From Roseateles toxinivorans (GTDB lineage Bacteria; Pseudomonadota; Gammaproteobacteria; Burkholderiales; Burkholderiaceae_C): 32,225 nt of DNA. Shown here one piece after another: positions 10,789-32,225 of the stretch. The stretch is taken from NCBI GenBank assembly GCA_945898095.1, contig CAMDHE010000053.1, forward strand, positions 1 through 32,225. The letters run 5' to 3'. Under the pieces are notes generated by a model. The model ran no database searches, was not told where the DNA came from, and was given only the letters and a program-made list of their open reading frames with translations. Position 1 is the stretch's first letter, and each line of letters starts with the position of its first letter. A program made the position numbers and the translations under genes.

Positions 10789-10794
10789 ACTATA
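10789..10794 (-). promoter_or_regulatory. Possible -10 element for kdgF
   Basis: On the minus strand 10794-10789 reads TATAGT (four of six bases match TATAAT), 31 bases upstream of the kdgF ATG. At a 17-base spacer the -35 hexamer would be TTCCAT, weak, and inside the KdgR-like site at 10812-10828. A repressor there would block the promoter. Confidence 0.35.
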
Positions 10795-10799
10795 CATTG

Positions 10800-10828
10800 G
10801 TGAACAAAAAAATGGAACAATGGTTCAC
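10800..10828. promoter_or_regulatory. Candidate KdgR operator between kdgF and kduI
   Basis: GGAACAATGGTTC (10814-10826) matches 10 of 13 bases of the KdgR core GAAACATTGTTTC. Around it lies a perfect 6-base inverted repeat, GTGAAC (10800-10805) and GTTCAC (10823-10828). The site is in the 195-base gap between two divergent pectin genes and would suit joint repression. It is weaker than the site before kdgK. The rest of this gap up to the kduI start shows no clear promoter. Confidence 0.5.
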
Positions 10829-10953
10829 TAGAGAAAAACCATTAGTCCGGAAAAACTTTGCCTGAGCTATGATTGCCGCTGCCCCATCTAGAGAGCACCC
10901 CGCTGATGCGCAAGAACCAGCCATCCAGCATGCTTCAGCCCACAGGAAATTCC

Positions 10954-11790: not shown

Positions 11791-11815
11791 AACCACTGCA
11801 ACCGGATCCTCTCTC

Positions 11816-12577: not shown

Positions 12578-12589
12578 AAAAGGATCACG

Positions 12590-14319: not shown

Positions 14320-14371
14320 CGCGCCGCCCTCAGCAGCGTTTGACCGCAATATCTGATTCGAAAGCAAACCC

Positions 14372-15499: not shown

Positions 15500-16797
15500 T
15501 CACGCGCCGCCGTCTGACCCTGGCCGGGGGATGGTCAGCGCTGGCCGCAAGCAGTGGCTTGCGGGCAGCGCCTGAGCCGACCGTATTGCGCTTTGCCTGG
15601 TGGGGCGGAGCAGGACGTCATGCCGCGACCCTGAAGGCTGTCGCGGCTTTCGAGCGCCATCACCCAGGGGTGAAAGTCAAATGCGAATACATGGGTTTCA
15701 GCGGCTACCTCGAGCGCTTGACCACCCAGATCGCAGGCCGCTCCGAGCCCGATGTGATGCAGATCAACTGGGCCTGGCTGGCAATGTTCTCCAAGCGCGG
15801 CAACGGTTTCACCGACCTGTCGGAGCACCGATCCTTGCTGTCCCTGGATCAATTCAGCGCCGGCGATCTGGCCACCGGCATGGTTGCCGGCAAGCTCAAT
15901 GCAATGCCGGTTTCCTACACGGCCCGAGTGCTGCTGTGGAACCAGGCCGCCTTTGCCCGTGCCGGCCTGGCCCTGCCTGACAGCTGGGAGTCGTTGTTTG
16001 CCTCTGGCCCGGTGTTCAAGCGAGCGCTGGGCGATTCGGCCTATCCGCTGGACGGCGAGCTCTACGACATGATCTTGCTGGCCCAAGCTTATGTGCACCA
16101 GAAGTACGGCACGCCCTTCATCGACCCGAACGAACCACGGGTGGCGATGAGCGCTGATGCGGCGCGGGAATGGGTCGAGGTCTATCGCCGGCTGGTGGAT
16201 TCACATGTGGCCACTCCGTTGCCGCTGCGCGCCAGCTTGGGCGGCGCCGACAAGCCCACCGAGCAGCAGCAAGACTGGGTGCAGGGTCGCTGGGCCGGCA
16301 ATTACACCTGGGACTCGGCCATCATGCTGCGCCAGGCGACGCTGGACGCGCAGCAGAAGCTGGCCATCGGCGCCTTCCCAACCCTGCCGAATGCCCGCAA
16401 CAGCGGCATGTTCGGTCGACCTTCACTGATGCTGGCGATCGGCCGCAACAGCCGGAAACCCGAGCTGGCAGCCAGTCTGGTCGGCTACCTTCTTGCCGAC
16501 CCTGAAGCCGCCATGCTGCTGGGTCGTACCCGCGGCGTACCCGCCGCACGCGAACCACTGCGAGCGTTGATGGCCGGCGGGGCGCTGCCGGCGCTGGAAA
16601 TGCAGGCCCACCAGTTGATCAAGACCCAGCGCGATGCTGGCCGGATCGACCTGCCCGCGCCGCTGTTCGAGCATGCCCGTGTGCACAAGCTGATGCGCGA
16701 GATCTTCGAGACCGTGGCATATAACAAGACCACACCCGCAGCAGCAGCGCAACGCCTGATCGTCGAGGGCAATGCCCTGCTGCGCCGGATCAAATAA
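15493..16797 (+). CDS. togB: Oligogalacturonide ABC importer, solute-binding protein (TogB-like)
   Basis: This 434-residue extracellular solute-binding protein (family 1) delivers the sugar to the permease pair. It starts at GTG 15493 inside the end of togA. The N-terminus reads MLITRRRLTLAGGWSALAA and runs to about residue 25 as a signal peptide; the RRRLTLAGG stretch resembles a twin-arginine (Tat) export signal. Mature-domain features include LRFAWWGG, FERHHPGVKV, SEPDVMQINWAWL and GRWAGNYTWDS. No lipobox is seen, so it should be a soluble periplasmic protein. The oligogalacturonide cargo is inferred from the adjacent kdu and ogl genes. Confidence 0.88.
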   Translation: MLITRRRLTLAGGWSALAASSGLRAAPEPTVLRFAWWGGAGRHAATLKAVAAFERHHPGVKVKCEYMGFSGYLERLTTQIAGRSEPDVMQINWAWLAMFSKRGNGFTDLSEHRSLLSLDQFSAGDLATGMVAGKLNAMPVSYTARVLLWNQAAFARAGLALPDSWESLFASGPVFKRALGDSAYPLDGELYDMILLAQAYVHQKYGTPFIDPNEPRVAMSADAAREWVEVYRRLVDSHVATPLPLRASLGGADKPTEQQQDWVQGRWAGNYTWDSAIMLRQATLDAQQKLAIGAFPTLPNARNSGMFGRPSLMLAIGRNSRKPELAASLVGYLLADPEAAMLLGRTRGVPAAREPLRALMAGGALPALEMQAHQLIKTQRDAGRIDLPAPLFEHARVHKLMREIFETVAYNKTTPAAAAQRLIVEGNALLRRIK

Positions 16798-16831
16798 CGC
16801 CCTGTCCCCTATCTACTCCCTGCGTGACCCC

Positions 16832-18001
16832 ATGAGCAAAGCCACCGTTCGCCCGATGCCCTTCGAGACTCGGCAGGACCCCGACACCGGGGCCCGCATC
16901 ACCCGGCTGACACCGCGTGATGTGACCTGCCACCGCAATTACTTCTATCAAAAATGCTTCACCAACGATGGCAGCAAGTTGATCTTCGGCGCCGAGTTCG
17001 GCCCGCAGCCCTCGCCAAACTGGAACTACCATCTGCTGGATCTGCAAACGCAGACCGCTACGCAGTTGAGCGAGGGGGCTGGCGAGAACACCTTCGGCGG
17101 TTTTCTCAGCCCTGACGACCGCCATCTGTACTTCGTGCGCGCCGAACGCCAGTTGATCCGGCTGGAACTGGCCACGTTGAAGGAAGAAGTGGCTTACACC
17201 GTACCCGAAGGCTGGGTTGGCTATGGCACCTGGGTCGCCAACAGCAAGTGCACGAAGATGGTCGGCATCGAGATCGCAGCCAGCGACTGGTTCCCGCTGT
17301 CGGATTGGAAGAAATTCGATGAGATGTTCCACAAGAAGCCGCGCTGCCGCCTGTTCAGCATCGACCTGGCGACCGGTCGGCGCAGCGTCATCCTGGAACA
17401 GCAAGGCTGGCTTGGTCATCCGCAATACCGTCCGTTTGATGACAACACCGTGGCTTATTGCCATGAAGGCCCGCATGACCTGATCGATGCACGCATGTGG
17501 TTCATCAACGAAGATGGCACGAACCGCCGCTGCGCCAAGGAGCATCTGAACGGCGAAAGCTGCACGCATGAGTTCTGGGTACCGGATGGCTCGGCCATGA
17601 TCTACGTCAGCTACCAGAAGGGTGACCCCGAGCGCTGGATCCGCTCGCTGGATCCGGTGACGCTGGCCGACAAACCGCTGATGAAAATGCCGCAATGCTC
17701 GCACCTGATGAGCAACCAGGATGGAACGCTGATCGTCGGCGATGGCTGCGGCCAAGCGGCCGAAGCGGCCAGCGGTTCGGCCAACGAGATGCTTAAGGGC
17801 GACCCCTTCCTGCACTTGTTTGATCTGAAGTCCGGCGCCACCAGACCGATCGCGCACCATGACAGCAGCTGGGGCGTCTACAAGGCGAGCCGCCAGGTGA
17901 CCCACCCCCATCCCTCGTTCACACCGGACGAAAAGCAGGTGCTTTTCAGCGCCGACGGCGAGGGTGAACCAGCGCTATTCTTGGCCGACGTCACGCATTG
18001 A
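16832..18001 (+). CDS. ogl: Oligogalacturonide lyase (PL22)
   Basis: This 389-residue seven-bladed beta-propeller lyase cuts short oligogalacturonides, mostly dimers, in the cytoplasm to unsaturated galacturonate for KdgF. Its length matches the enterobacterial Ogl (388). Family features are CHRNYFYQKCFTNDG near 33-47, ESCTHEFWVPDG (242-253), CSHLMSNQDG (289-298) and the metal-binding VTHPHPSF (356-363). Start ATG 16832 was chosen by family alignment over an earlier in-frame ATG at 16772 that lies within togB. Its stop overlaps the next gene as TGATG, so the pectinase fusion is translated from the same message. Confidence 0.95.
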   Translation: MSKATVRPMPFETRQDPDTGARITRLTPRDVTCHRNYFYQKCFTNDGSKLIFGAEFGPQPSPNWNYHLLDLQTQTATQLSEGAGENTFGGFLSPDDRHLYFVRAERQLIRLELATLKEEVAYTVPEGWVGYGTWVANSKCTKMVGIEIAASDWFPLSDWKKFDEMFHKKPRCRLFSIDLATGRRSVILEQQGWLGHPQYRPFDDNTVAYCHEGPHDLIDARMWFINEDGTNRRCAKEHLNGESCTHEFWVPDGSAMIYVSYQKGDPERWIRSLDPVTLADKPLMKMPQCSHLMSNQDGTLIVGDGCGQAAEAASGSANEMLKGDPFLHLFDLKSGATRPIAHHDSSWGVYKASRQVTHPHPSFTPDEKQVLFSADGEGEPALFLADVTH

Positions 18002-20523
18002 TGTTGCGCCTGGCAATTGCACTGCTGCTGGCCGCCTCGGCATTGGGCGCCTGCGTGCAAACGCCCCATGCAACTCCGCAGGCTCAGGCAGCCGAGACCG
18101 CTGCCGCGATTGCCCTGATCGGCAAGGTGCAGGCTGACGCCAAGAGCGACATCCCGCCAGACCAACTGCGCCCCCCCTCGGGAGAGCGCCCGCTGCTGAA
18201 TGCCGCCGTCGCTGCCCGCATGGAAGTGGCCGACTACTTGGCGCAGGGGCACGGCCCTTGGAGCCCTGAGGACTTGGCCGACAAGAGCTGGCGGGCAAAC
18301 TACACCGTGGCGGTCGATGGCAGCGGCACACACAAATCCGTGCAGGCCGCCATCGATGCGGTGCCGCAGCGCAGCGCCAACCCGGCCCGCGTGGTCGTCC
18401 AGCTCAAACCAGGCATCTATCGCGAACGCGTCTGCATACCAGTCGGCAAGGCACCGATCACGCTGCTGGGTGATGCAGGCGATGCGAGCGCCACCGTCAT
18501 CGTCGGCAGCGCCTATGGTGGGCAGGCCAAGCGGCCTGGTATCGATATATCGCATGGTTGCCAGCCCGACCTGGCATTGCCGATCTACGGCACGCTGGGC
18601 AGCGCCACCTTGATCGTCGCCGCCGAGGACTTCCAGGCCGCGCACCTGACCGTGGCCAATGATGTGCTTGAAGCCGTTCGTGGCGGCGAAGGCTATCCGG
18701 CTGGCGCTAGCGAAAGCGGCGGCGCACAGGGTGTGGCGTTGACCACGCAGGCCGACCGCGTGCAACTGGAAAACATCCGCCTGATCGGGCATCAGGACAC
18801 CTTCCATGCCCGCCGGCCCACGCCTGTCGAGCCGGCGCGCGTCTATGTGCATGGCAGCCTGATTGCTGGTGACGTGGACTTCATCTTCGGCAATGCCACG
18901 CTGGTCATCGCCGACAGCACCATCCTCAACCGTGGCGGCCGGCGCCGGCCGCCCAATGGTGGCCATGTACTGGCGCCCAGCACACCGGCCGGCGTGGCCC
19001 TGGGTTTCCTTGTCACAGGCAGCCGTTTTCTGGCTGAGACCGGAACCCCGCTGGCCAATGTCAGCCTGGGCCGTGCCTGGGATGAGGGCGTGGCGCGCGG
19101 TGCCTGGCAGGCCGGCAAATCACCCAACGGGCAGGCGCTGATTCGCAACAGTCTGCTGGGCCCGCATCTGGCACTGCAGACACCTTGGGCCGCATCGACC
19201 TCGCGCAGGCCCTTCACGGCCCATGGCCCGCAGGCCAACCGCATGGCCGAGTTCAACAATATCGTGCTGGGCGAAATCGCGCTGGCACGAGAAGTGTTGT
19301 CGCCGCTGGACGGCTGGGCAGCTGCCGCTGGCGGCACCACAGGCGGCGCGACGGCCTTGGCCGGCGATGTCCACACCGTGCGCAACCGTGCCGAGCTGGT
19401 GGCTGCGCTGCGACCCCATGGCAAGGTGCAGGGCTCGCGCCAGCGCCCGCGCATCGTTCAGGTGCAGGGCACCATCGACCTCAGCGTCGATGAAGACAAC
19501 CGGCCGCTGGGTTTCGAGCAGTACCGCGATCCGGGTTTCAATTGGCCCGAATTCGAACTCAGCTACAACCCATTAACGTGGGGCAAGAGGCCGCCCGACG
19601 GGGCCCTGGAAAAGGCCCGTGCCAGTTCAGCAAATAGGCAGGCGCGATCGGTTGTCGTGCGGGTGCCTTCAAACACCAGCATCATTGGCCTGGGTAACGA
19701 CTCCCACCTGACGCATGGCAACCTGATGCTCGAGCGCGTAGACAACGTGATCATCCGGAATTTGCGTTTTTCAGACTCTTACGACCATTTCCCGGCCTGG
19801 GACCCCAAGGACAATGCCAACGGCGAGTGGAACAGTGAATACGACGCCATCACGCTGAACGGCGCCACGCATGTCTGGGTGGATCACTGCAGTTTCGACG
19901 ACGGTGACCGGCCCGATGGTGGCGAACGCATCGCCTTTGGGCGCCGTATGCAGCACCACGACGGCCTGCTGGACATCATCCGCCAAGCCAACCACATCAC
20001 GGTCAGTTGGAACGTTTTTCGCAACCACGACAAGACAACGCTGGTGGGCAATGGCGACGGCCGCAAGGCAGACGAAGGCCGGCTCAAGGTCACCTTCCAT
20101 CACAACTGGTACGAGGGCAGCAAGGAGCGCACGCCGCGGGTGCGTTACGGCCAGGTGCATGTCTACAACAACCTCTTCGAAGGCCGCAAAGACGGCGACT
20201 ATGCCTACGGCTATTCACTCGGCGTTGGCGTGAACTCGCGCATCTACAGCGAACGCAATGCCTTCGAAATGCCGGCGGGCATCGGCGCGCAGCGACTGGT
20301 CCGTTGGTTGCGCGGCAGCAGCTTCTTCGACCAGGGTTCGCTGCTGAACGGCCAAGCGGTGGACCTGCTGGCCGGCTTGCGGGCGGCGAATCCAGCGGCG
20401 CAATTGAGCGCCGAGGTCGGCTGGCAACCCACGCTGGTCGGCCCCTTGGACTCAGCCAGCGAACTGCCGACAAGGATCCGGGCGAACGCCGGAGCCGGTC
20501 AACTTTGGCGTAAAGCCGATTGA
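18001..20523 (+). CDS. Lipoprotein pectin methylesterase-pectate lyase fusion (CE8-PL1)
   Basis: The 840-residue protein begins at ATG 18001, overlapping the ogl stop. It has a lipoprotein signal peptide (SALGAC, lipid Cys18). Residues 100-440 are a CE8 pectin methylesterase: YTVAVDGSGTHKSVQAAI, GHQDTF (Asp266), DVDFIFG (Asp293) and LGRAWD (Arg358, Trp360), so all catalytic residues are present. Residues 455-835 are a PL1 pectate lyase: RVPSNTSIIGLG, WVDHCSFDDG (627-636), HHNWYEGSKERTPRVRYG (700-717) and VYNNLFEG. The esterase would remove methyl groups and the lyase would then cut the exposed polygalacturonate. The lipid anchor suggests membrane attachment, probably facing the periplasm or outside. 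No linker repeat or carbohydrate-binding module is seen. Confidence 0.93.
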   Translation: MLRLAIALLLAASALGACVQTPHATPQAQAAETAAAIALIGKVQADAKSDIPPDQLRPPSGERPLLNAAVAARMEVADYLAQGHGPWSPEDLADKSWRANYTVAVDGSGTHKSVQAAIDAVPQRSANPARVVVQLKPGIYRERVCIPVGKAPITLLGDAGDASATVIVGSAYGGQAKRPGIDISHGCQPDLALPIYGTLGSATLIVAAEDFQAAHLTVANDVLEAVRGGEGYPAGASESGGAQGVALTTQADRVQLENIRLIGHQDTFHARRPTPVEPARVYVHGSLIAGDVDFIFGNATLVIADSTILNRGGRRRPPNGGHVLAPSTPAGVALGFLVTGSRFLAETGTPLANVSLGRAWDEGVARGAWQAGKSPNGQALIRNSLLGPHLALQTPWAASTSRRPFTAHGPQANRMAEFNNIVLGEIALAREVLSPLDGWAAAAGGTTGGATALAGDVHTVRNRAELVAALRPHGKVQGSRQRPRIVQVQGTIDLSVDEDNRPLGFEQYRDPGFNWPEFELSYNPLTWGKRPPDGALEKARASSANRQARSVVVRVPSNTSIIGLGNDSHLTHGNLMLERVDNVIIRNLRFSDSYDHFPAWDPKDNANGEWNSEYDAITLNGATHVWVDHCSFDDGDRPDGGERIAFGRRMQHHDGLLDIIRQANHITVSWNVFRNHDKTTLVGNGDGRKADEGRLKVTFHHNWYEGSKERTPRVRYGQVHVYNNLFEGRKDGDYAYGYSLGVGVNSRIYSERNAFEMPAGIGAQRLVRWLRGSSFFDQGSLLNGQAVDLLAGLRAANPAAQLSAEVGWQPTLVGPLDSASELPTRIRANAGAGQLWRKAD

Positions 20524-21457: not shown

Positions 21458-22714
21458 ATGTCCATCATCGAACTTGTTGCCGCTGCGCTCTTCGCCCTTG
21501 CGCTGATCCACAGCTTCTCGACCGGCTACTTCCAGCGGCTCGAGCAACGGCACCCCAAGCATGCGGGGCTGTTCCACCTGCTCGGTGAAGTCGAGCTGGT
21601 TTTCGGCTTCTGGTCGGTGCTATTGATCGCCGCGATGGCTTGGCTGGAAGGGCCGGCCAAGGCGATCGGCTATGCCGAATCGCGCCAATATACCGAGCCG
21701 CTGTTCGTCTTCGTGATCATGGTGATCGCCGCCTCGCGTCCGGTGGTGAGCAATATCGAGGCCTTGATCGCTTCGATCGCCAGCCGCTTGCCGCTGCGTG
21801 CTGCGCTGGCGCAGGTCTGGCTTTGCCTGGCGCTGCTGCCGCTGATCGGATCCCTGATCACCGAACCCGCCGCGATGACGCTGGCCGCGCTGATGCTCGC
21901 GCCGCTGGTGTTTCGCCCCGGCATCCCCGAGCGGCTGAAATACGGGGCGCTCGGCGTGCTGTTCGTCAACATCTCGATCGGCGGCACCTTGACGGCGTTT
22001 GCTGCGCCGCCGGTGCTGATGGTCGCTGCCAGTTGGAACTGGGACAACGCCTTCATGGCCAGCCAATTCGGCTGGAAGGCCATGATCGCCGTGCTGATCA
22101 ACGCCACCGCCATCACCTTCATGCTGCGCCAGCATCTGCATGACGCCGATGCAGCGCTTGCAGCGCCTGCCGCGCCAGCATTGCCGGTGCCGCGCCTGCT
22201 CAGCCTGATCCATTTCGCCTTGCTGGCCGGGGTGATCCTGTTCGCCCACCACCCCGTCATCTTCATCGGGCTGTTCCTGCTGTTCCTGGGCATTGCGCAG
22301 GCCTATGCGAGCCACCAGAACAAGCTGGTGCTGAAAGAAGCCCTGCTGGTCGGGCTGTTCCTGGGCGGTCTGCTGCTGCTTGGCGGCATGCAGCAATGGT
22401 GGTTGCAGCCGATCGTGGCCGGTCTCGAACCGACTACGCTGTTCTTCGGCGCGCTGGGCCTGACGGCGTTCACCGACAACGCCGCGCTGACCTATCTGGG
22501 CTCGCTGATCGAAGGCATCAGCGACCCCGCCAAATACATGCTGGTCGCCGGCGCCGTCGCAGGCGGCGGCATGACCGTCATCGCCAACGCCCCCAACCCC
22601 GCAGGCATTGCCCTGCTCAAGCAAGGCTTCCAGCACGCCTCCATCAGCGCCGCCGGCCTCGCTGCCGGCGCGGCGCTGCCGACGGTGGTGGCGGCGGCGG
22701 TGTTCTGGTTGTAG
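21458..22714 (+). CDS. Predicted Na+/H+ antiporter (Na_H_antiport_2 family)
   Basis: This 418-residue inner-membrane protein has about eleven hydrophobic segments. It begins MSIIELVAAALFALALIH and contains LGEVELVFGFWSVLL, SRPVVSNIEALI, GSLITEPAAMTLAALMLAP, GGTLTAFAAPPVLMVA, FTDNAALTYLGSLIEG and NAPNPAGIALL. The repeated short polar motifs in helices (TEPAAMT, TDNAALT) resemble ion-transporter folds, and the whole matches the putative Na+/H+ antiporter family annotated in many proteobacteria. Ion and coupling have not been established for most members. It follows kdgR by 54 bases on the same strand, but nothing links it to pectin metabolism. The 102 bases after its stop hold no gene that I can see. 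Confidence 0.75.
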   Translation: MSIIELVAAALFALALIHSFSTGYFQRLEQRHPKHAGLFHLLGEVELVFGFWSVLLIAAMAWLEGPAKAIGYAESRQYTEPLFVFVIMVIAASRPVVSNIEALIASIASRLPLRAALAQVWLCLALLPLIGSLITEPAAMTLAALMLAPLVFRPGIPERLKYGALGVLFVNISIGGTLTAFAAPPVLMVAASWNWDNAFMASQFGWKAMIAVLINATAITFMLRQHLHDADAALAAPAAPALPVPRLLSLIHFALLAGVILFAHHPVIFIGLFLLFLGIAQAYASHQNKLVLKEALLVGLFLGGLLLLGGMQQWWLQPIVAGLEPTTLFFGALGLTAFTDNAALTYLGSLIEGISDPAKYMLVAGAVAGGGMTVIANAPNPAGIALLKQGFQHASISAAGLAAGAALPTVVAAAVFWL

Positions 22715-22816: not shown

Positions 22817-23191
22817 CTACATCACCGTCGCTTCAAGGCGGAATTGGCTGGCGGTGGCCCGGACTTCTTTCATTCGACCATGGCCGGGCAGCACCTTCGA
22901 TTCAACCGTGACCATGCCGATGTCGACCAGTTGATCGACATCGCGTTTGACTGCGCTACGGTCACGATGGAGCCGCTGGGCGATCGCTGTGATCGACCCC
23001 GGTGATTGCCTGACGCTGCGCAGCACATCGAGCCTGCCCCCGGTGAGCAATTTGAGCAGGTCCATCGGATCTTCAAAGCTGAGGATTCGTTCGGCTGGCA
23101 AAGGGCTTGCCCCATCTGCCAAGCGCGCAATCTCTATGCCGCGCCGGAAGAAATCCTGCGCGTCGCCGGTCTTCAGTAGAACTTTCTTCAT
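22817..23191 (-). CDS. TumA-like antitoxin with winged helix-turn-helix
   Basis: This 124-residue protein has a MarR-like winged helix between about 45 and 105 (GGRLDVLRSVRQ, then ITAIAQRLHRDRSAVKRDVDQLVDIGMV). Its ATG at 23191 overlaps the stop of the upstream toxin-like gene (ATGA). HTH proteins of this kind pair with DUF6516/TumE-type toxins and usually repress their own operon through an upstream palindrome, which is present here. The last 23 codons and other parts of the gene are repeated in a scrambled relic at 23568-23715. The family name is from recall of conserved pairings and should be tested by profile search. Confidence 0.7.
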   Translation of the reverse strand: MKKVLLKTGDAQDFFRRGIEIARLADGASPLPAERILSFEDPMDLLKLLTGGRLDVLRSVRQSPGSITAIAQRLHRDRSAVKRDVDQLVDIGMVTVESKVLPGHGRMKEVRATASQFRLEATVM

Positions 23192-23484
23192 GATGAACCT
23201 CGCAATACAAGCCAGTCAGCCTGGAACTGTTCTTCAGTGGCCTCGAAGCTGATGAACTCCACCGGGCTGACCACTCCGAAATAATGTCGGTGGTAGTAAC
23301 CATGCTGGTTGTCATAGCCAAGCACTCGGCCGTTGTCTCCCCGATGCAAATCATGGTTGATATAGGCCAAGTTGTATCGGTTGACCCGACCCTTGGCGTC
23401 AACCCACACCTCGCGCCTCAGTTGGCCGTTGCCTCGCTTGCGCGCAATGCTATGGGCTTCATCGATGATTTTTGCATCAGGCAT
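23188..23484 (-). CDS. TumE-like toxin (DUF6516 family)
   Basis: This 98-residue basic and aromatic-rich protein contains RREVWVDAKGRVNRYNLAYINH and GYDNQHGYYHRHYFG, followed by FISFEATEEQF. That layout is characteristic of the small DUF6516 (TumE-like) toxins found directly before an HTH antitoxin. No transmembrane segment or signal is present. The gene comes first in the pair, and its stop overlaps the antitoxin ATG, so both are made from one message. A 27-base palindrome covers the start codon and the bases before it, the expected place for autorepression. The molecular target of the toxin is not evident from the sequence. Confidence 0.7.
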   Translation of the reverse strand: MPDAKIIDEAHSIARKRGNGQLRREVWVDAKGRVNRYNLAYINHDLHRGDNGRVLGYDNQHGYYHRHYFGVVSPVEFISFEATEEQFQADWLVLRGSS

Positions 23485-23727: not shown

Positions 23728-25140
23728 CTACTCCGCGGCGGCTCTGATGTTCCCGCTGGAAAATCCATCAGTTGAGCCGGAAGCGGCTTGCAGTTCGACC
23801 ATGGCCGCAGCGAAATTTGCGCATGGGTCGCCCTTTGGCTGAATAAAAATACGCGATGCGGTTGAAAACGGCAGCGGCTGGCCGGGGTGCAGTTTCGCGG
23901 CAATGCTGTTCACGCAATTGTGCAAACGGTCGAGTACGCGGCAGGCAATGTCCCGGTCGGGCAAGCCGTGGGCGAGCAGCAGGTACTCGCCATTCCCCAA
24001 TGTCAGGCACAGGTCAGGCGATCGCACCGCCTTGCTGAACGCTTCGGTATGGGGATCCGGCAAGGCAATATGGATCCGCGCGAGGGGTTCATTGCGTCTC
24101 GGCGCTTGTACGACCAGCAAGGCGGTCCACCCCTGGCTCCCCCGCAGCGACTCCAGTTGTCGCTGGGCATCGTCGTAGGTGTGATTCCAGGCGTGTTCGC
24201 TGTCAGTACGCTGATAGTAAGAATTCCGCGAACGCGATCTGCGTTGCGAGCGCAGCAATGAGACGCAGGCCGCCGTAGCGATCAGGCAAGAGGCTATGGC
24301 TGCCAGATCAGCCAATCGCGGGTTAATTACGCTCGGCGGCTCACCTCCAACCGAGATCGTCCAATTGCGTTCTGGCAGGTGAATTTCGGCAGATACCGGG
24401 TTTGAAAGCGGCGGTGCCGGAAAAGGAAAAAATGCCTCTCGCTTGTTGGACGCGTTGTCGATGGTTGATAAATTGAAGCCCGCATCGGCGACCTGGATCC
24501 CGCAGGTCAATAGATGCGCTTCGATGTCAGGCGTCCGCACAAGGATGAAGATGAAGCCCCAGAGTTTCTCGCTTTTGGTGCTGCTGTCGATGGGCATGAA
24601 AACCGGCAGACGAGCCATGGCCCCGATGCCGCCCCTGAGAAACTGGTGTGGTCGTGCCACGACCATGGCGCGCTTGCGAATTGATTCCTGGGTTTCGTTC
24701 GAGGCGGCCGGGTCTTGCAACAGGTCCCGGCCCAAGGCTGCTTCATTTTCTTCCATCGGGTAGATGGCTCGAACTACTCCGTCAGGAGCCAGACCCAGTG
24801 CAGCGACGAGCGGATTGAGCTTGATGATTTCGGCTGCGACCCGGTCGAAGTCTTGAACCGATCCGGCGCTGCGAATCAGGTTCTTGAGGATTTGTGCCGA
24901 GGCGAACGCGCGAGTCAGGTCTTGCTCGATCAGCATGGCTGCCGCCGCAGTGGCTTGACGGAGCTTGGCGCGGCTTGAAGCGGACTGCGACTCGCGCAGA
25001 TAGTTCAGCCCGCCCAAGCTCAAGGCCAACAAGAGCAAGAAGATTGCACAGCCAAATTGAACGCTGCTTTGTTTCAACCACGACCGCCACGACCGGCTGC
25101 GGTTTGCAGCAGGTTGAACGGTCCGACTGGGTCTGGTCAT
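23728..25140 (-). CDS. CHASE-type membrane sensor with degenerate GGDEF-like C-terminus
   Basis: The 470-residue inner-membrane protein has two membrane helices (29-48 and 277-296) that bracket a periplasmic CHASE-like sensor (about 60-215; IIKLNPLVAALGLAPDGVV, then YPMEENEAALGRDLLQDP). CHASE domains usually feed diguanylate cyclases, kinases or similar outputs. The cytoplasmic part (about 335-455) aligns in pattern with a GGDEF domain, but the active-site position reads GNGEY (382-386) and other catalytic parts are missing. It should therefore not make cyclic di-GMP; it might bind a nucleotide or a partner, or be decaying. ATG 25140 follows AAAGGA. A 22-base palindrome lies 81 bases upstream. 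Confidence 0.75.
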   Translation of the reverse strand: MTRPSRTVQPAANRSRSWRSWLKQSSVQFGCAIFLLLLALSLGGLNYLRESQSASSRAKLRQATAAAAMLIEQDLTRAFASAQILKNLIRSAGSVQDFDRVAAEIIKLNPLVAALGLAPDGVVRAIYPMEENEAALGRDLLQDPAASNETQESIRKRAMVVARPHQFLRGGIGAMARLPVFMPIDSSTKSEKLWGFIFILVRTPDIEAHLLTCGIQVADAGFNLSTIDNASNKREAFFPFPAPPLSNPVSAEIHLPERNWTISVGGEPPSVINPRLADLAAIASCLIATAACVSLLRSQRRSRSRNSYYQRTDSEHAWNHTYDDAQRQLESLRGSQGWTALLVVQAPRRNEPLARIHIALPDPHTEAFSKAVRSPDLCLTLGNGEYLLLAHGLPDRDIACRVLDRLHNCVNSIAAKLHPGQPLPFSTASRIFIQPKGDPCANFAAAMVELQAASGSTDGFSSGNIRAAAE

Positions 25141-25370: not shown

Positions 25371-25895
25371 CTATTTCCGCCGGCGCACCGCGCTGAGGAT
25401 GCCTTCGAGAATGGCCAGCGGCGCAGGTGGGCAGCCGGGTATGCTGTGGTCGACGGGGATCACATTGGCGACGCGGCCGCAGCTGGCGTAGTTCGCCACC
25501 GGGCCGGCACAGAAGATGCCGCCATCGCAGCCGCAATCGCCAACCGCCACGACCAGCCTGGGCTCGGGCGTGGCCTCAAAAGTGCGCCGCAAGGCTTCTT
25601 CCATATGGCGCGACACCGGGCCGGTGACCAGCAGCATGTCGGCATGGCGTGGGCTGGCGACGAACTTGATGCCCAAGCCCTCGAGGTTGTAATAAGGGTT
25701 GCCCAGCGCGGTGATTTCGAGCTCGCAGCCGTTGCAGGATCCGGCATCGACCTGCCTGATCGTCAAGGCCTGGCCGAGGATGTTCAGCAAGTCCTGGTGG
25801 ATCGCCTGCACCGCTGCGGCTTCGGGCCAGTCGATGACCGGCAGCGGCTCGGTGACGATGCCGGTGCGGACGATCTGTTTGAGGATTCGTAGCAT
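25371..25895 (-). CDS. hyfI: NuoB/HyfI-like Fe-S small subunit of hydrogenase-4-like complex
   Basis: This 174-residue cytoplasmic-face subunit carries a single iron-sulphur cluster, the equivalent of N2 in complex I. The motifs are SCNGCELE (Cys54, Cys57), GDCGCDGGIF (Cys121, Cys123) and PGCPPAPL (Cys155). It is shorter than Escherichia coli HyfI/HycG (about 250) because a C-terminal extension is absent. Its start overlaps the stop of the large-subunit gene as TGATG. It is the last gene of the operon. Because the cluster site is intact while the partner has lost its Ni-Fe site, electron transfer to some other acceptor or a structural role is possible. Confidence 0.88.
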   Translation of the reverse strand: MLRILKQIVRTGIVTEPLPVIDWPEAAAVQAIHQDLLNILGQALTIRQVDAGSCNGCELEITALGNPYYNLEGLGIKFVASPRHADMLLVTGPVSRHMEEALRRTFEATPEPRLVVAVGDCGCDGGIFCAGPVANYASCGRVANVIPVDHSIPGCPPAPLAILEGILSAVRRRK

Positions 25896-27376
25896 CAGAG
25901 ATCATGCCCCGAATAGCTGAGGTTGAACGATTTGTTGATCAGCGGAAAGTCGGGAACGATGTTGCCGATCACCGCATGCTCGAGCACCGGCCAGTTCTGC
26001 CAGGAAGGGTCATGGCAATGGCAAGTCAGGATGCGGCTGGCTGCACTAAGGTCCAGCGCCACCATCACCTCGCCGCGCCAGCCTTCAACCCAGCCGATGC
26101 CGAAGCCGGCACTGGCGGGCTCGATCGGCTGCTGCAGCGGCCCGGCCGGCAGCATGCGGCAGATGCTGCGGATCAGGCGCAGCGACTCGAACAATTCCTC
26201 GAAGCGGATCGCCACCCGCGCCGCGACATCGCCTTGGCTGTTGGTGGCGACCCGGAACTCCAGCTTGTCATAGGGCGCCCAGGGCTGGTCGCAGCGCAGA
26301 TCCCTTGCCTGCCCGCTGGCGCGGCCGGCCATTCCCGTCAGTCCGAGCTGTGCGGCCAGCTCGGGGGTCACCCGGCCGGTATTCATGAAGCGGTCTTGCA
26401 AGCCGGCATGTTCGTCGTAGATCAGCTGCAACTCACGCAGTTCGCCCTCCACCGCATCGCATTGCCTCAGCATGGCTTGGACCATGGCCTGCGACAGGTC
26501 GCTTTTGACGCCGCCGGGCAGCAGCTGGTCCATCATCAGGCGATGGCCGAACGCTGTCATCGACAAGCGCTGCCAGTCCTCACGCAAGCGCGAAAACTGC
26601 GCCAGGCCGAAGGCCAGCGCGGCGTCATTGCCCAGCGCACCGAGGTCGCCCAGATGGTTGGCGACGCGTTCACGCTCGAGCATCAAGGCCCGCAGCCAGC
26701 TCGCCCGTACCGGAATCTCACAGCCCCAGGCCGACTCCAGCGCCATGCAATAGGCCCAGGCATAGGCGACGGTGCTGTCGCCCGAAACGCGGCCGGCAAG
26801 CCGGTAAGCATCCAACGGTGCCATTTCGGTGAAGCGTCTGCAGATGCCTTTGTGCGTGTAGCCGAGTCTTTGCTCCAGGCGCAGCAATTTCTCGCCGACG
26901 ACTGAAAAGCGGAAATGACCGGGTTCGATGATGCCGGCATGCACCGGCCCGACTGCAATCTCGTGCACGCCTTCGCCTTCGACGCGCACGAACGCATAGT
27001 CATCGGGCAGCTTGCCTGGGGCTTCATGCCATTGCCCATGGTTGATCCAGGGACGCTGGTCAAGGCTGCCTTCGGTTTGCAGCCCGCACAGGTCGGCCAT
27101 CGCGCGCTGCATCCGGCCGGCAAATGGAAAGGTGGCCGACAAGTCCGGTGCCGGCCGACCATCGCTCAGTTCGACGCAGAGCAAGCCTTCGGCCATGCCG
27201 TATGCCGCCAACACCGAACCGGCTGCGCTGCCCCAAACCGAGATCAACCTGCCGCCGCTGCTGGCCAGCCTCGGCGCCAGATCGGCCCAGGCCTGGCGGT
27301 CGACGCTGGCGCGCCAGATCGGCAGCGGCGCGGCCAGGCGCTGGATGGCAAAACCTTGTTCTGACAGGCTTTTCAT
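25895..27376 (-). CDS. hyfG: HyfG/HycE-like large subunit lacking the Ni-Fe cysteines (Ehr type)
   Basis: This 493-residue fusion of a NuoC-like N-terminal part (about 1-160) and a NuoD/hydrogenase large-subunit part contains GPVHAGIIEPGHFRF (143-157) and KLLRLEQRLGYTHKGI, the hallmark of HycE/HyfG. At the first metal motif, where hydrogenases have R-x-C-G-x-C-x-x-x-H, it has RVSGDSTVAY (196-205): Ser198 and Ser201 replace both cysteines and Tyr205 the His. The C-terminal motif DPCxxC is replaced by NLSYSG (485-490), with Ser487 and Gly490. No [NiFe] centre can form and no C-terminal processing tail follows. This places it with energy-converting hydrogenase-related (Ehr) complexes. Overlaps with hyfF (ATGA) and hyfI (TGATG) indicate coupled translation. 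Confidence 0.9.
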   Translation of the reverse strand: MKSLSEQGFAIQRLAAPLPIWRASVDRQAWADLAPRLASSGGRLISVWGSAAGSVLAAYGMAEGLLCVELSDGRPAPDLSATFPFAGRMQRAMADLCGLQTEGSLDQRPWINHGQWHEAPGKLPDDYAFVRVEGEGVHEIAVGPVHAGIIEPGHFRFSVVGEKLLRLEQRLGYTHKGICRRFTEMAPLDAYRLAGRVSGDSTVAYAWAYCMALESAWGCEIPVRASWLRALMLERERVANHLGDLGALGNDAALAFGLAQFSRLREDWQRLSMTAFGHRLMMDQLLPGGVKSDLSQAMVQAMLRQCDAVEGELRELQLIYDEHAGLQDRFMNTGRVTPELAAQLGLTGMAGRASGQARDLRCDQPWAPYDKLEFRVATNSQGDVAARVAIRFEELFESLRLIRSICRMLPAGPLQQPIEPASAGFGIGWVEGWRGEVMVALDLSAASRILTCHCHDPSWQNWPVLEHAVIGNIVPDFPLINKSFNLSYSGHDL

Positions 27377-28836
27377 GGGCCCACCAGCATTGCTGCTGCC
27401 TGCTGGTACCAGCCGTCCAGATAGGGCGGAATATAAAGGCCCAGCATCAGCCCCAGCAACAGGTGGACGAAGACCGGCAGCAGCGCCGGTTGATGGTCCA
27501 GCGGTTTCAAGCGGGTCTCGCCGAAGACCATCGGCTGCACCCGGCTGAACACGGCGGCAAAGGCCAGCCCCAGCGCGATCAACAGAAACGGCGTGGCCCA
27601 GGGCTGCTCGCGCATCGCGGTGGTGACGATCAGGAATTCGCTCGCGAACACACCGAACGGCGGCATGCCCAGGATCGCCAGCGTACCCAGCATCAGCCCC
27701 CAGCCGACGGTCGGGCTGACGCGAATCAGGCCGCGGATCTCGTCCATCAACTGGCTGCCGGCTTTTTGCGTGGCATGTCCTACGGCAAAGAAGATCGCCG
27801 ACTTGATCAACGAATGCACGGTCATGTGCAGCAGCCCGGCATAGCTGGCGATTGGCCCGCCCAGGCCAAAGGCAAAAGTCATCATGCCCATATGCTCGAT
27901 CGACGAATAGGCGAACATGCGCTTGACGTCCTTTTGCCGGATCAGAAAGAACACCGCCGCGACCACCGACAGCAGACCAAATCCCATCATCAGCTGGCCG
28001 GTCAGCTGCTGGCTGTGCAGGGCGCCGTCAGTCAGCACCTTGCAGCGCAGGATCGCGTACAGCGCCACGTTGAGCAGCAGCCCGGAGAGCACCGCCGATA
28101 CCGGTGTCGGCCCTTCGGCATGGGCATCAGGCAGCCAGTTGTGCACCGGCACCAGACCGACCTTGGTGCCGTAGCCGATGAACAAGAAGGCAAAAGCCAG
28201 CGTGATGATATTGGGGTCGAGCTGCGACTTGACCGCGTCGAGATGGGTCCACAGCAGGGCGCCGCCGCTGGCGCCGATGACTTTTTCGGCCGCCATATAC
28301 AGCAGCACCGTGCCGAACAAGGCCTGCGCGATGCCGACGCCGCAGAGAATGAAATATTTCCACGCAGCTTCCAAGCTGGCAGCAGTGCGGTAGACGCTGA
28401 CCAGCAGCACGGTTGTCAGCGTCGCCGCCTCCATCGCGACCCAGAGGAGGCCCATATTGTTGGTCGTCAGCGCCAGCAGCATGGTGAAGTTGAACAGCTG
28501 GTACATGCTGTGATACAGGCGCAGCCGCGGCGGCGTCATCTTGCCGCGGTCCTGTTCGATGCGCATATAGGGGCGTGAAAAAATCGTCGTCGTCAGCCCG
28601 ACGAAAGCCGTCAGCGTGACCAGAAAGACGTTCAGCGCATCGACATAGAACTCGCTGTCCCAGAACAGCTGCGGCCCGTCGCGGATGATCTGTGTGGTCA
28701 GCCAGCAGGCGGCCAAGAAGGTCACCCCGCTGAAAGCGACATTGAGGTCGCGCGCCCGCTGATGGTGGCCGACCCCACCCAGCAGCAGGCCGCCGAGCAA
28801 GGGCGTGGCGAGCAGCAGAGCCAGCGGGGCGCTCAT
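27373..28836 (-). CDS. hyfF: Hydrogenase-4 subunit F-like antiporter subunit (NuoN/NuoL family)
   Basis: This 487-residue membrane protein has about 14 helices and starts MSAPLALLLATPLL at ATG 28836. A longer open frame upstream lies within hyfE and is not the gene. The conserved proton-channel region FLFIGYGTKVGLVPVHNWLPDAHAEGP and the broken-helix sequence PTPVSAVLSGLLLNVALY are typical of Mrp/complex I antiporter-like subunits, as is FAYSSIEHMGMM. Its start overlaps the hyfE stop, and its stop overlaps hyfG (both ATGA). It is slightly shorter than Escherichia coli HyfF (about 526). The role is ion translocation coupled to the peripheral arm. Confidence 0.9.
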   Translation of the reverse strand: MSAPLALLLATPLLGGLLLGGVGHHQRARDLNVAFSGVTFLAACWLTTQIIRDGPQLFWDSEFYVDALNVFLVTLTAFVGLTTTIFSRPYMRIEQDRGKMTPPRLRLYHSMYQLFNFTMLLALTTNNMGLLWVAMEAATLTTVLLVSVYRTAASLEAAWKYFILCGVGIAQALFGTVLLYMAAEKVIGASGGALLWTHLDAVKSQLDPNIITLAFAFLFIGYGTKVGLVPVHNWLPDAHAEGPTPVSAVLSGLLLNVALYAILRCKVLTDGALHSQQLTGQLMMGFGLLSVVAAVFFLIRQKDVKRMFAYSSIEHMGMMTFAFGLGGPIASYAGLLHMTVHSLIKSAIFFAVGHATQKAGSQLMDEIRGLIRVSPTVGWGLMLGTLAILGMPPFGVFASEFLIVTTAMREQPWATPFLLIALGLAFAAVFSRVQPMVFGETRLKPLDHQPALLPVFVHLLLGLMLGLYIPPYLDGWYQQAAAMLVGP

Positions 28837-29495
28837 TGGTCTTCTTTCAATTGCTCGAGGTGGCTGATGTCGAGGCTGTCGAATTGTTCGCGGATCTGGA
28901 ACATGAAGACCCCGAGGATCAATACCCCGATCAAGACGTCGAGCGCAATGCCGAGTTCGACCACCATCGGCATGCCGTAAGTCGCTGCGGTGGCGGCAAA
29001 AAACAGGCCGTTCTCCATCGCCAGGAAACCGATCACTTGCGGCACTGCCTTGGCCCTGGTGATCATCATCAGAAAGGACAAGAGCACGCAAGCCAGAGCG
29101 ATGCCCAGGGTGCCACTGGCCAGCGCGGACGAGAAATTCGCGATCGGCAGCGCCAGGTTGAAGGCAAAGATCACCACGCCGATACCGATCAACATGGTGG
29201 TCGGGATGTTGATCAGCGTTTCGACGTCCCATTTGATGTTCAACCGATTCACCACCCGGTGCAGCAGCCAGGGGATCAGGAACACTTTCAGCAACAAGGT
29301 CATGCCGGCCGACAGGTAGAGATGGGGTTGCCCGGTGACATAGCCGACCAAGGCGGTTGCCAACACCAGCGTTGCCCCCTGCAGAGTGAACAGATGGATC
29401 AGCGAAACGACGCGGCGCTGAGAAATCATCGCGAAGGTCAGCATCAGCAGCAAGGCGCCGAGCAGGTTGACGAGCTGGGTCAGGAGGCTGCTCAT
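28833..29495 (-). CDS. hyfE: Hydrogenase-4 subunit E-like membrane protein (NuoK-related)
   Basis: This 220-residue protein has about seven hydrophobic helices, with length close to Escherichia coli HyfE (216). It contains SLIHLFTLQGATLVLATAL, LLLKVFLIPWLLHRVV, and AMENGLFFAATAATYGMPM with the membrane-embedded glutamate of NuoK-like proteins. It ends with a charged cytoplasmic tail, ISHLEQLKEDQ. It begins 13 bases after the hyfC stop and its own stop overlaps hyfF (ATGA). It would form part of the ion-translocating chain between HyfC and the antiporter-like subunits. Confidence 0.88.
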   Translation of the reverse strand: MSSLLTQLVNLLGALLLMLTFAMISQRRVVSLIHLFTLQGATLVLATALVGYVTGQPHLYLSAGMTLLLKVFLIPWLLHRVVNRLNIKWDVETLINIPTTMLIGIGVVIFAFNLALPIANFSSALASGTLGIALACVLLSFLMMITRAKAVPQVIGFLAMENGLFFAATAATYGMPMVVELGIALDVLIGVLILGVFMFQIREQFDSLDISHLEQLKEDQ

Positions 29496-29508
29496 TGGAT
29501 TGCGGCCC

Positions 29509-30450
29509 TCATCTGGCGAGCAAGAGATGAACCAGCAGGCCGATCACGGCCAGCAGGAAGGCGCTGGCGAGAAATTCGGGCACGCGGAAGATGCGCATCT
29601 TGGCCGACACCGTCTCGAACAAAGCCAGCAGCGCGCCACCGATCGCCAGCTTGAAGACCAGCATCGGCAGGGCCAGCAGCATCGCCAGCGGCGCCTGGGC
29701 TTCGGCTACGCCCCAGGGGAAAAACAGCGCCAGGCCGATGCAGGAATAGGCAAACAGCTTCAGGCTTGCCGCCCATTCAAGCAGGGCCAGATGGCGGCCC
29801 GAATATTCGAGGATCAATGCTTCATGGATCATCGTCAGTTCGAGATGGGTGTTCGGGTTGTCGACCGGCACGCGAGCGTTCTCGGCCAGCGAGACCATGA
29901 TGAACGCCACCGCAGCAAAGGCCAGCCCCGGGTAGATCGCCAGTTCGCGGTGGGCGAGCGTCTCGACGATCGTCACCAGCGAGGTCGATTGGCAGATCAG
30001 CGAGGCTGAAAAAAGCACCATCAGCAGCGCCGGCTCGGCCAGGAAGCCGATCAGCATCTCGCGCCTTGCGCCCATGCTGCCGAAAGCCGTACCGACATCC
30101 ATCGCCGCCAGCGAAATGAACACCCTGGCCAAGGCGAACAGGCCGACCAACGCGATTGCATCGGCGGCCGGCGCCAGCGGCAGATCGGTCGACAGCGTCG
30201 GGATGATCGCGCAGGCCAGCAACATGCAGCCAAACACCAGATAAGGCGCGGCGCGGAACAGCGGCGAGGCATGGGTGGCGACGATCGATTCCTTGTTGAA
30301 CAGCTTGTGCAGCGTCCGGTAGGGCAGCAACAAGCTCGGCGCCTTGCGGTTCAGCAGCCAGGCACTGCATTGCCTGCTCCAACCGCTGAGCAGCGGCGCC
30401 AGCGCCAGCGCCAGCAGGATTTCAAGCAACTGCGAGATCACGCCGGTCAT
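29509..30450 (-). CDS. hyfC: Hydrogenase-4 subunit C/HycD-like membrane anchor (NuoH family)
   Basis: This 313-residue NuoH-like membrane subunit connects the peripheral arm to the membrane. The start at ATG 30450 overlaps the hyfB stop as TGATG; the open frame runs upstream to 31038 only as a shadow of hyfB. Features include the amphipathic LLPYRTLHKLFNKESIVA (44-61), AMDVGTAFGSMGARREM, AENARVPVDNP and the acidic HLELTMIHEALILEYSG, which correspond to the conserved charged loops near the quinone or ferredoxin side in the family. The length is near that of Escherichia coli HyfC (about 320). Membrane helices number about eight. Confidence 0.9.
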   Translation of the reverse strand: MTGVISQLLEILLALALAPLLSGWSRQCSAWLLNRKAPSLLLPYRTLHKLFNKESIVATHASPLFRAAPYLVFGCMLLACAIIPTLSTDLPLAPAADAIALVGLFALARVFISLAAMDVGTAFGSMGARREMLIGFLAEPALLMVLFSASLICQSTSLVTIVETLAHRELAIYPGLAFAAVAFIMVSLAENARVPVDNPNTHLELTMIHEALILEYSGRHLALLEWAASLKLFAYSCIGLALFFPWGVAEAQAPLAMLLALPMLVFKLAIGGALLALFETVSAKMRIFRVPEFLASAFLLAVIGLLVHLLLAR

Positions 30451-32225
30451 CACATCACCACCAGCAGCGTGGCGGTCAGCGTCAGGAAGCTGTAGAGCAG
30501 GTAGACCGCGATGCGGCCCTGCTGCATCAAGCCGATCAAGCGCGCCAGATGGTTGGCCAGGTCGGCCAGTGGCAGATAGAGCCAATGCCAAAAATGGTCT
30601 TCCAGCTTGATGCTGTAACGCGGCTGTGGATCGAATGGCGTCGGCAGTTCGCGCTGCATCCGGAAGAAGGGTTCGAAAATCTGCCGGATCGGCTGACCGA
30701 AGCCTTCGGCCGTGTCCTGCATGCGTGCATTGCCCCAGGGAAAGCCGCAGGCCCAGGGCGGCGCGCGTCTTGTCCGGCCATGGTAGAGCAGGCGCACCAG
30801 CAGGAAAGCCAGCACAAAGCTGCCGATGATGCCGAGCAGGAAGATCACCGGCCCGTAACTCGCCTGATCCATGTTGACCGGCGCCAGCAGCCAGCCGTTC
30901 GCCGCAGTGCGCGCGCCCAGCCCGGCTTGCACCAGTTGCTGCGTCACCGGGTCGATCAACTGGATGAACTGTGTCGGCAACAGGCCTAGCGCCAAGCAGC
31001 CCAGCGCCAGCCAGAGCATGCCGGCGCGTTCCCACCAACCGGCGTCGTGGGCATGGGCGAGCTTGTCTTCGCGCGGCTGGCCAAGGAAGATCACGCCGAA
31101 GAACTTGACCATCGTGTAGCCCGCCAATGCCGCCACCAGCGCGATCAGCGCCGCGACCGCCGGAATCAGCATTGTCAGCAAGGGCAGCGGCAGGTCAGGC
31201 GTGAACAGAAAACTCTGCAGCAGCAACCATTCCGAGACAAAGCCGCCCAGCGGCGGCAAGCCCGCGCTGGCCAGCACGCCCAGCAGCATCAGCCAGGCGA
31301 CCCAGGGCATCGTGCGGATCAGTCCGCCGAGGCGGCCGAGATTGCGCTCCGAGGTCGCATGCAGGACGCTGCCGGTGCCGAGGAACAGCAAGCTCTTGAA
31401 GCAGGCATGGCTGGCGACGTGATAGAGCGTGGCAGTCAGCGCCAGCGCGGCCATCGGCAGCATTTCGAAGGCGGTAAAGATCAAGCTCAGACCCAGGCCG
31501 ACGAACAGCAGGCCCATGTTCTCGATCGACGAATAGGCCAGCAGGCGCTTCATGTCGGTCTGCGCCGCAGCAAACACGACGCCGTAGAGCGCTGTGGCCA
31601 GCCCGACCGCCAGCAGCAAGCCGCCCCACCACCACTGCTGCATCGGCAGCAGGTCGAACGACACCCTCAGCAGGCCGTAGATGGCGGTGTTCAGCATCAC
31701 GCCGCTCATCAAGGCCGAGACCGGCGAAGGTGCTGCCGGGTGCGCTTCGGGCAACCAGACATGCAGCGGCAGCACGCCCGCCTTGGCGCCGAAGCCGAAC
31801 AAGGCCAGCAGGAAACCCGCGCTGGCCCAGAACGGCGTCAGCTCCTGCGCGCGCATATTGGCGAAACGGTAGTCGCCGGTGTTCGCCTGCAGCACGCCAA
31901 AGCAGAGCAGGATGGCGATCGCGCCGACATGCGCCATCACCAGATAAAGGTAGCCGGCGCTGCGTACTTCGGCGATGCGGTGGTTGGCTGTGACCAGAAA
32001 GAACGATGACAGCGCCATCGTTTCCCACATCACCATGAAGGCATAGGCATCGTCAGCCAGTACCACCCCGACCATGCTGGCGAGGAAGAGATGGTATTCA
32101 AGGCATAACAAGCCCGGCGGTGTGCCTTCGCCCTGGCGGAAATAGCCGGCGGCGAAAACCGAGATGCCGGCCGAGGCGGCGCCGATCACCATCAGGAAAT
32201 AGGCTGACAAGGCGTCGAGCCGCAA
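30450..32225 (-). CDS. hyfB: Hydrogenase-4 subunit B-like antiporter subunit (NuoL family), 5' end beyond window
   Basis: The frame is open to the window edge, giving 591 residues; Escherichia coli HyfB has about 672, so roughly 80 N-terminal residues lie outside. It is a large antiporter-like membrane protein. The conserved channel region GFGAKAGVLPLHVWLPEAHPAAPSPVSALMSG is present, as are MKRLLAYSSIENMGLL, LYHVASHACFKSLLFL and GLPPLGGFVSEWLL. The C-terminal part has the HyfB/HycC-type extension with WACGFPWG and FEPFFRMQRELPTPF, then a final helix. It is the first gene of the operon visible here and overlaps hyfC. Confidence 0.9.
   Translation of the reverse strand: MRLDALSAYFLMVIGAASAGISVFAAGYFRQGEGTPPGLLCLEYHLFLASMVGVVLADDAYAFMVMWETMALSSFFLVTANHRIAEVRSAGYLYLVMAHVGAIAILLCFGVLQANTGDYRFANMRAQELTPFWASAGFLLALFGFGAKAGVLPLHVWLPEAHPAAPSPVSALMSGVMLNTAIYGLLRVSFDLLPMQQWWWGGLLLAVGLATALYGVVFAAAQTDMKRLLAYSSIENMGLLFVGLGLSLIFTAFEMLPMAALALTATLYHVASHACFKSLLFLGTGSVLHATSERNLGRLGGLIRTMPWVAWLMLLGVLASAGLPPLGGFVSEWLLLQSFLFTPDLPLPLLTMLIPAVAALIALVAALAGYTMVKFFGVIFLGQPREDKLAHAHDAGWWERAGMLWLALGCLALGLLPTQFIQLIDPVTQQLVQAGLGARTAANGWLLAPVNMDQASYGPVIFLLGIIGSFVLAFLLVRLLYHGRTRRAPPWACGFPWGNARMQDTAEGFGQPIRQIFEPFFRMQRELPTPFDPQPRYSIKLEDHFWHWLYLPLADLANHLARLIGLMQQGRIAVYLLYSFLTLTATLLVVM

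Follow-up and report, generated by a model that had tools for sequence, protein, structure and literature searches.

An operon for an energy-converting hydrogenase-related complex in Roseateles toxinivorans, and a possible link of its family to inorganic-carbon uptake

Contig CAMDHE010000053.1 of Roseateles toxinivorans (assembly GCA_945898095.1) was analysed in its entirety (32,225 bp, referred to here as the window), and its last 6.9 kb are taken up by six tightly packed minus-strand genes whose stop codons overlap the following starts, in the order hyfB-C-E-F-G-I. Their products match by homology the six-gene make-up A-B-C-D-L-S of the Ehr complexes (energy-converting or Ech hydrogenase-related complexes), named ehrABCDLS in the available part of PMC6688271; several papers, in the parts available, state that their function is unknown. 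Genome surveys have reported Ehr complexes from nitrifiers, methanotrophs, Geobacter and candidate phyla. The features are as follows.

30450..32225, minus strand: hyfB (ehrA-like), antiporter-like membrane subunit, 5′-truncated (NF005086, 881 bits; copy in locus L029)
29509..30450, minus strand: hyfC, NuoH/HycD-like membrane anchor with E-channel (PF00146; HycD 7z0s_D)
28833..29495, minus strand: hyfE, small membrane subunit (NF008556, 89 bits, missing the cut-off of 136; position kept in relatives)
27373..28836, minus strand: hyfF, second antiporter-like membrane subunit (NF005045, 900 bits)
25895..27376, minus strand: hyfG, NuoC/NuoD-like large subunit without Ni-Fe ligands (PF00346; HycE by sequence and predicted fold)
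26774..26785, minus strand: codons of Ser198-Gly199-Asp200-Ser201, replacing the first Cys pair (alignments)
25907..25936, minus strand: codons from Asn481-Lys482-Ser483 to Ser487...Gly490, replacing the second Cys pair (alignments)
25371..25895, minus strand: hyfI, small subunit with one predicted 4Fe-4S cluster at Cys54, Cys57, Cys121 and Cys155 (PF01058)

All six frames are open, and the gene order given in a first-pass annotation of this DNA agrees with the families matched, which are NADHdh, Proton_antipo_M (twice), Complex1_49kDa and Oxidored_q6 in Pfam, and hydrogenase-4 subunits B and F above their NCBIfam cut-offs, with subunit E under its own; HyfE has no Pfam match above cut-off. 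Because the window is the entire contig, hyfB is cut at the contig end and is short of its first 79 residues; a genome of the same genus (G017, locus L029) has the complete operon, with hyfB (670 aa) as the first of the six genes. The starts of hyfF at 28836 and hyfC at 30450 were set by alignment with relatives.

Alignment of HyfG with Escherichia coli HycE and with a true hydrogenase (L040) places Ser198, Ser201, Ser487 and Gly490 at the positions of the four Ni-Fe cysteines, as the first-pass annotation had read them. These positions are Ser in 141, Ser in 140, Ser in 142 and Gly in 150 of 156 homologous HyfG rows, a cysteine is present in only 8, 1, 1 and 0 rows respectively, and none of the 156 homologues, which are not fully de-duplicated, carries more than one of the four cysteines. 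Some genomes appear twice in this set, as named and unnamed loci, and it leaves out L040, L041 (a distant Ehr-like row), L049 (on one contig with L042), L084 (a duplicate of L177), and L147 and L184 (second copies); the alignments of 90 HyfG and 86 HyfI rows used below leave out L040, L041 and L049 and comprise a different row set. Rows with a stop codon, coverage under 75–80% or identity under ~36% were also dropped. The L029 HyfG, 96% identical to the window copy, carries the same Ser/Ser/Ser/Gly residues, so the replacements are not a single-sequence error. The alignments thus indicate that the loss of Ni-Fe ligands in the Ehr large subunit is old.

The residues around the site form a signature, Asp200 and Asn481-Lys482-Ser483, that is almost invariant; Asp200 is present in 156/156 rows, Lys482 in 154 (with two gaps) and Asn485 in 152. 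The first-pass annotation had also allowed for a quinone-like site where the Ni-Fe centre was, and this idea is weakened: the quinone-site residues His38 and Tyr87 of complex I (Thermus thermophilus numbering) align to Ile150 and Gly199 of HyfG, themselves kept in 90/90 and 89/90 relatives. The pocket thus resembles neither that of hydrogenase nor that of complex I, and it is maintained as a site of its own kind, distinct both from a Ni-Fe site and from the quinone site of complex I. The HyfG chain ends at Leu493, and HycE is longer by ~32 C-terminal residues, presumably its maturation tail. The predicted structure of HyfG is HycE-like (TM 0.85; a single model of mean pLDDT 84.6), with residues 114–176 and 489–493, which contain E151, H146, H154 and G490, mostly below 50 pLDDT. 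We note also that the window has Cys at codon 179 of hyfG (26840–26842), where Glu is found in 138/156 relatives and close relatives have either Gly or Ala.

The earlier proposals that selection maintains the complex and that its ion-pumping membrane subunits are intact are both supported. Ratios of nonsynonymous to synonymous substitution (dN/dS) are 0.02–0.14 in all six genes, as measured in one pair, the window and L029. Cysteines C54, C57 and C121 of HyfI are present in 86/86 relatives, and C155 in 85/86; the buried Glu, Lys and His residues, on the putative proton path, are conserved in 120–126 of 126 relatives for HyfB and in 144–145 of 145 for HyfF, and six Glu/Asp and one Arg of HyfC in 133/133. 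The residues of the proton route of formate hydrogenlyase (FHL), as described in the available part of PMC9474812, map to E151, H146, H241, R352, E394 and R434 of HyfG, each kept in at least 153/156 rows, and the position of the FHL canopy Asp is occupied by Asn485.

The two arms of the complex differ in how they are conserved. In complex I, NuoD and NuoB exceed NuoH, NuoL and NuoM in conservation by a mean of 14.4 points (28/28 genome pairs), whereas in Ehr HyfI and the NuoD-like portion of HyfG lie below HyfB, HyfC, HyfE and HyfF by 2.9 points (24/28 pairs); thus the membrane arm of Ehr is relatively more constrained than that of complex I. The effect is modest and depends on the choice of subunits, being −8.6 with only HyfC and HyfF compared with the whole of HyfG; the figure of −2.9 includes HyfB and HyfE and excludes the fast N-terminal part of HyfG. 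A faster change of HyfG in the clade of the window is not clearly indicated: at equal membrane identity, values for the window's clade and the others are 74.7 and 74.4 in one identity bin, and 75.0 and 79.3, a lower identity for the clade, in the second.

The genome from which the window derives is 97% complete, and it contains no match to the hydrogenase maturation protein HypD; apart from HyfG, its one further PF00346 protein is NuoD. Neither RuBisCO nor DabA (PF10070) has a match in this genome, and a beta-type carbonic anhydrase and one SulP protein are encoded away from the ehr operon. Four of the 18 genus genomes searched have the operon (G000, which is that of the window, G014, G016 and G017). 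A scan of named genomes gave 80 loci, the best 80 of 533 confirmed, in Beta-, Gamma-, Alpha- and Deltaproteobacteria, Nitrospirae and Acidobacteria, and the six-gene order is repeated in most of the sufficiently long loci among those listed. In a sample of 300 Burkholderiales genomes, 86 match at E ≤ 1e-60, and 80 remain after removal of six weaker matches that include at least one true hydrogenase (L040); HypD is absent from 33 of these 80 Ehr genomes. In our tree, 22 Ehr rows form one group at 99/99 that excludes one hydrogenase, one distant Ehr-like row and NuoD, and the HyfG of an Accumulibacter (L054) groups with that of the window at 97/96. The earlier assignment to Ehr complexes rather than hydrogenases is borne out by the six-gene make-up, the absence of the Ni-Fe CxxC motifs and the lack of HypD in the genome, and the operon encodes an ordinary Ehr complex: complex-I-like, membrane-bound, with one predicted Fe-S cluster and a metal-ligand-free pocket.

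Several variants of the system were encountered among the relatives. A further Ehr type, paralogous to the first, has the tail NKSVNGSYSG and includes L147 and L184; it makes up a clade of its own (100/99) and adjoins the first operon in L048 (12187–19518) and L148 (around 10159). In genome G033 the Ehr genes are split over two distant chromosomal sites (L033, 4242–8596, and L032, 10182–11782), with most of hyfB not found and with hyfG pieces that overlap by ~80 codons. The end of hyfF and hyfG are in a single open frame in L042 (2–2245), through either fusion or an assembly effect, and a distant Ehr-like operon in L041 (7111–14134; genome G044) has a HyfG that is ~30% identical and shows a different replacement of the Ni-Fe motifs.

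Genes for an electron donor were sought by clustering 3810 flanking open reading frames from 94 loci. The commonest recurrent real flanking genes are metG, in 16 loci, and one resembling spermidine synthase, in 11, and neither the clusters nor inspection by eye, with no family search made, revealed a recurrent ferredoxin, formate dehydrogenase or NuoE/F/G-like cluster, so the earlier observation that a donor subunit is lacking extends to the relatives. No donor gene was found in the operon and its near flanks in the window, where the open reading frames of positions 1–20000 were listed and left unannotated.

The flanks of the operon in relatives include genes of inorganic-carbon metabolism. 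We examined 77 of the 80 Burkholderiales Ehr regions, leaving out G160, G291 and G000 (the window, with no linked gene seen); in 65 of the 77, sequence of 1 kb or more precedes the operon. The queries, all drawn from Ehr flanks, were SulP, gamma-type, CsoSCA, CsoSCA-like and beta-type anhydrases, form I RuBisCO, Cbb and Cso proteins; DabA and form II RuBisCO stand outside this query set. At least one SulP, carbonic anhydrase or RuBisCO/cbb/cso gene is present in 22/77 regions, distributed over 7 of 28 families. In 13 regions (5 families) a SulP gene precedes hyfB by no more than 500 bp on the same strand, against a rough chance expectation of ~0.023, calculated from SulP counts under the uniform assumption of a 3.3 Mb genome and a slot of 1 kb; an anhydrase is found in the flanks of 13/77 regions (6 families) and cbb or cso genes in 4/77, and no beta-type anhydrase was encountered next to Ehr. 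The identical queries gave 0/40 in atp and 0/11 in nuo control regions; the 40 atp genomes include 22 chosen as linked, and this comparison thus serves as a control for the queries, whereas the frequency of linkage is the 22/77 given above. RuBisCO of form I or II is encoded by 21/22 linked and 33/55 unlinked genomes. On a tree of 125 rows (133 before removal of those >97% identical), the linked label is carried by 27 of 123 labelled rows and requires 12–13 changes, compared with a shuffled mean of 24.7, and therefore the linkage has been gained or lost several times, though it is clustered.

Individual loci illustrate the range of arrangements. In L138 (G277) and L035/L137 (G048), a SulP gene and the six ehr genes are accompanied, on the opposite strand, by a CsoSCA-like protein, and further by a GGDEF/EAL protein, a CbbR-like regulator, the large and small subunits of RuBisCO and CbbQ/CbbO-like proteins (Cbb names assigned by eye). 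In L139 (G325), a run of CbbO, CbbQ, bacterial microcompartment (BMC) shell, CsoSCA, CsoS2 and RuBisCO genes begins 233 bp away from the operon and is oriented towards it, and in L140 (G184) and L039 (G054) a gamma-anhydrase-like gene lies 8–17 bp upstream of hyfB; its three His residues in L140 align with the zinc-binding His residues of the Methanosarcina enzyme. A form II RuBisCO gene lies 261 bp past hyfI in L106 (Thiomonas), and DabA ~3.6 kb past hyfI in L054, the only locus with DabA beside Ehr among those searched. A CitMHS/TrkA_C transporter (PF03600) is also present near hyfB on the same strand in L039 (15901–17880), L140 and L095, and in the first two it follows the gamma-anhydrase-like gene.

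The neighbourhood pattern raises the specific question of whether Ehr is part of the inorganic-carbon toolkit. We propose, with a probability of about 0.4 and at the level of the family, that Ehr is a proton-translocating partner of inorganic-carbon uptake. By moving protons, Ehr would make CO2 hydration by a carbonic anhydrase, or SulP-type bicarbonate import, run one way, and bicarbonate would accumulate in the cell as it does with cyanobacterial NDH-1MS and chemoautotroph DAB; both the proton translocation and the carbon role are inferred. In the RuBisCO-free host of the window the complex might do the same family job, supplying bicarbonate for ordinary carboxylations. If the proposal is true, many autotrophs and some heterotrophs carry an unrecognised carbon-uptake system, and the proton machinery of the complex I superfamily has been reused once more for CO2 capture; if it is not, a conserved metal-ligand-free pocket beside an Fe-S cluster still represents a distinct site. 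We found no link between Ehr and inorganic carbon in the available text of the open-access literature (subscription papers and bioRxiv preprints being outside this scope), and the word 'hydrogenase' occurs 0 times in the available part of a 2024 review of the inorganic-carbon toolkit (PMC10880623). The linkage may be new; the operon itself is of a known Ehr type.

Several observations weigh against this proposal. The window copy and its 23-row clade have no linked neighbour among the queries (the DabA of L054 not being queried), and the host genome, with neither RuBisCO nor DabA, already has a beta-type anhydrase; with unrelated genes as its neighbours, the carbon role is weaker for the window copy than for the family. 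The remaining 55 of the 77 regions are unlinked, and the queries were themselves taken from Ehr flanks. Ehr co-occurs with RuBisCO at an odds ratio of 6.8 and with HypD at 5.2, neither corrected for phylogeny. The SulP of L035 falls far under the BicA cut-off, which leaves its substrate uncertain; the CsoSCA-like and gamma-type proteins are under the NCBIfam cut-offs, although the former is above that of Pfam; and HyfG has no recognised CO2-hydrating site. Other roles have also been put forward, in the available parts of the papers concerned: formate and H2 metabolism in Geobacter (PMC7894505), coupling to formate dehydrogenase (PMC6349859) and pH homeostasis (PMC6688271).

A more specific form of the proposal, which we regard as rather doubtful, is that Ehr constitutes a third complex-I-derived inorganic-carbon accumulator beside NDH-1MS and DAB. 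The hydrogenase centre would have been remodelled to a metal-ligand-free pocket (Asp200, Asn481-Lys482-Ser483 and Arg434), and through this pocket the protons moving in HyfB and HyfF would be coupled to the hydration of CO2 or the import of bicarbonate; SulP, CsoSCA-like protein, gamma-type anhydrase and DabA would be exchangeable partners, and the machine would be widespread in Betaproteobacteria, including heterotrophs such as the host of the window.

Close behind the carbon role, and compatible with it, is the tentative alternative of a redox pump, in which a soluble low-potential carrier such as ferredoxin or flavodoxin would pass electrons through the HyfI cluster and HyfG to a quinone or other small molecule while protons are pumped; in reverse, the proton-motive force would drive the making of low-potential reductant. 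The near-complete retention of the cluster cysteines (85–86 of 86) and the conservation of the proton route and E-channel favor such a pump, its reverse mode would fit the co-occurrence with RuBisCO, and Geobacter Ehr subunits are described as more abundant with formate in the available part of PMC7894505. It is less easily reconciled with the lack of a recurrent donor gene in the clusters and by eye, with the absence of the complex I quinone residues from HyfG, and with the SulP and anhydrase neighbours, which it leaves unexplained.

It is improbable that Ehr is an ion gate serving pH homeostasis, with the antiporter-like arm exchanging protons or sodium and the hydrogenase-like arm merely regulating it. 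The pH role suggested in the available part of PMC6688271 is in keeping with this, as is a membrane arm relatively better conserved than the peripheral one (−2.9 points, the opposite of the +14.4 in complex I), but that effect is modest and varies with the subunits averaged, and near-invariance of the pocket signature and cluster cysteines goes beyond the needs of a passive regulator. A decaying or sequencing-damaged hydrogenase-4 or FHL, despite the homology to FHL subunits, is refuted at the level of sequence and scarcely credible, given the old cysteine loss (no homologue with two of the four), the absence of HypD here and from 33/80 Ehr genomes, and open frames under purifying selection (dN/dS 0.02–0.14).

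The surroundings of the operon in the window are of other kinds. Downstream on the same strand, a CHASE-domain protein directly follows hyfI (23728–25140, minus), and then a probable toxin-antitoxin pair (22817–23484, minus) composed of an HVO_A0114-like helix-turn-helix protein, above cut-off, and a TumE-like toxin, under cut-off. A putative Na+/H+ antiporter of an unrelated fold family (PF07399, 595 bits) is encoded on the plus strand at 21458–22714, 2.7 kb from hyfI, and a long plus-strand open reading frame at 17998–20523 appears by eye to join a pectinesterase-like part to a subsequent pectate-lyase-like one.

Comparison with known systems places the operon closest to the Ehr complexes (ehrABCDLS), which in the available descriptions have the same six subunits and the same absence of CxxC Ni-Fe motifs, and nothing in the window distinguishes it from them. 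With E. coli FHL and the group 4 [NiFe] hydrogenases it shares the HyfG fold, homology to HycE, HycD and HycC, and the proton-route residues (available part of PMC9474812); it differs in that HyfG has no Ni-Fe ligands and no C-terminal extension, in the replacement of the canopy Asp by Asn485, and in the absence of a HycB-, HycF- or FdhF-like gene from the operon, and neither the four Ni-Fe cysteines nor a HypD in the genome, both expected of a group 4 [NiFe] hydrogenase, was found. Homology to NuoB, NuoC, NuoD, NuoH, NuoL and NuoM and the buried Lys and Glu residues are shared with complex I, from which the operon is set apart by the lack of an NADH module, by Ile150 and Gly199 in place of His38 and Tyr87, and by the reversed conservation of the two arms; HyfI also has Cys54-x-x-Cys57 where NuoB has adjacent cysteines (available part of PMC9474812). 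The vectorial carbonic anhydrases DAB and NDH-1MS differ in that the genome of the window has no DabA and the operon no known CO2-hydrating subunit (CupA and CupB were not searched for). DAB is driven by the proton-motive force, according to the available part of PMC13144422, and what DAB and NDH-1MS have in common with Ehr is the proposed work, the antiporter-like subunits and, in relatives of the window copy, a neighbourhood of carbon genes.

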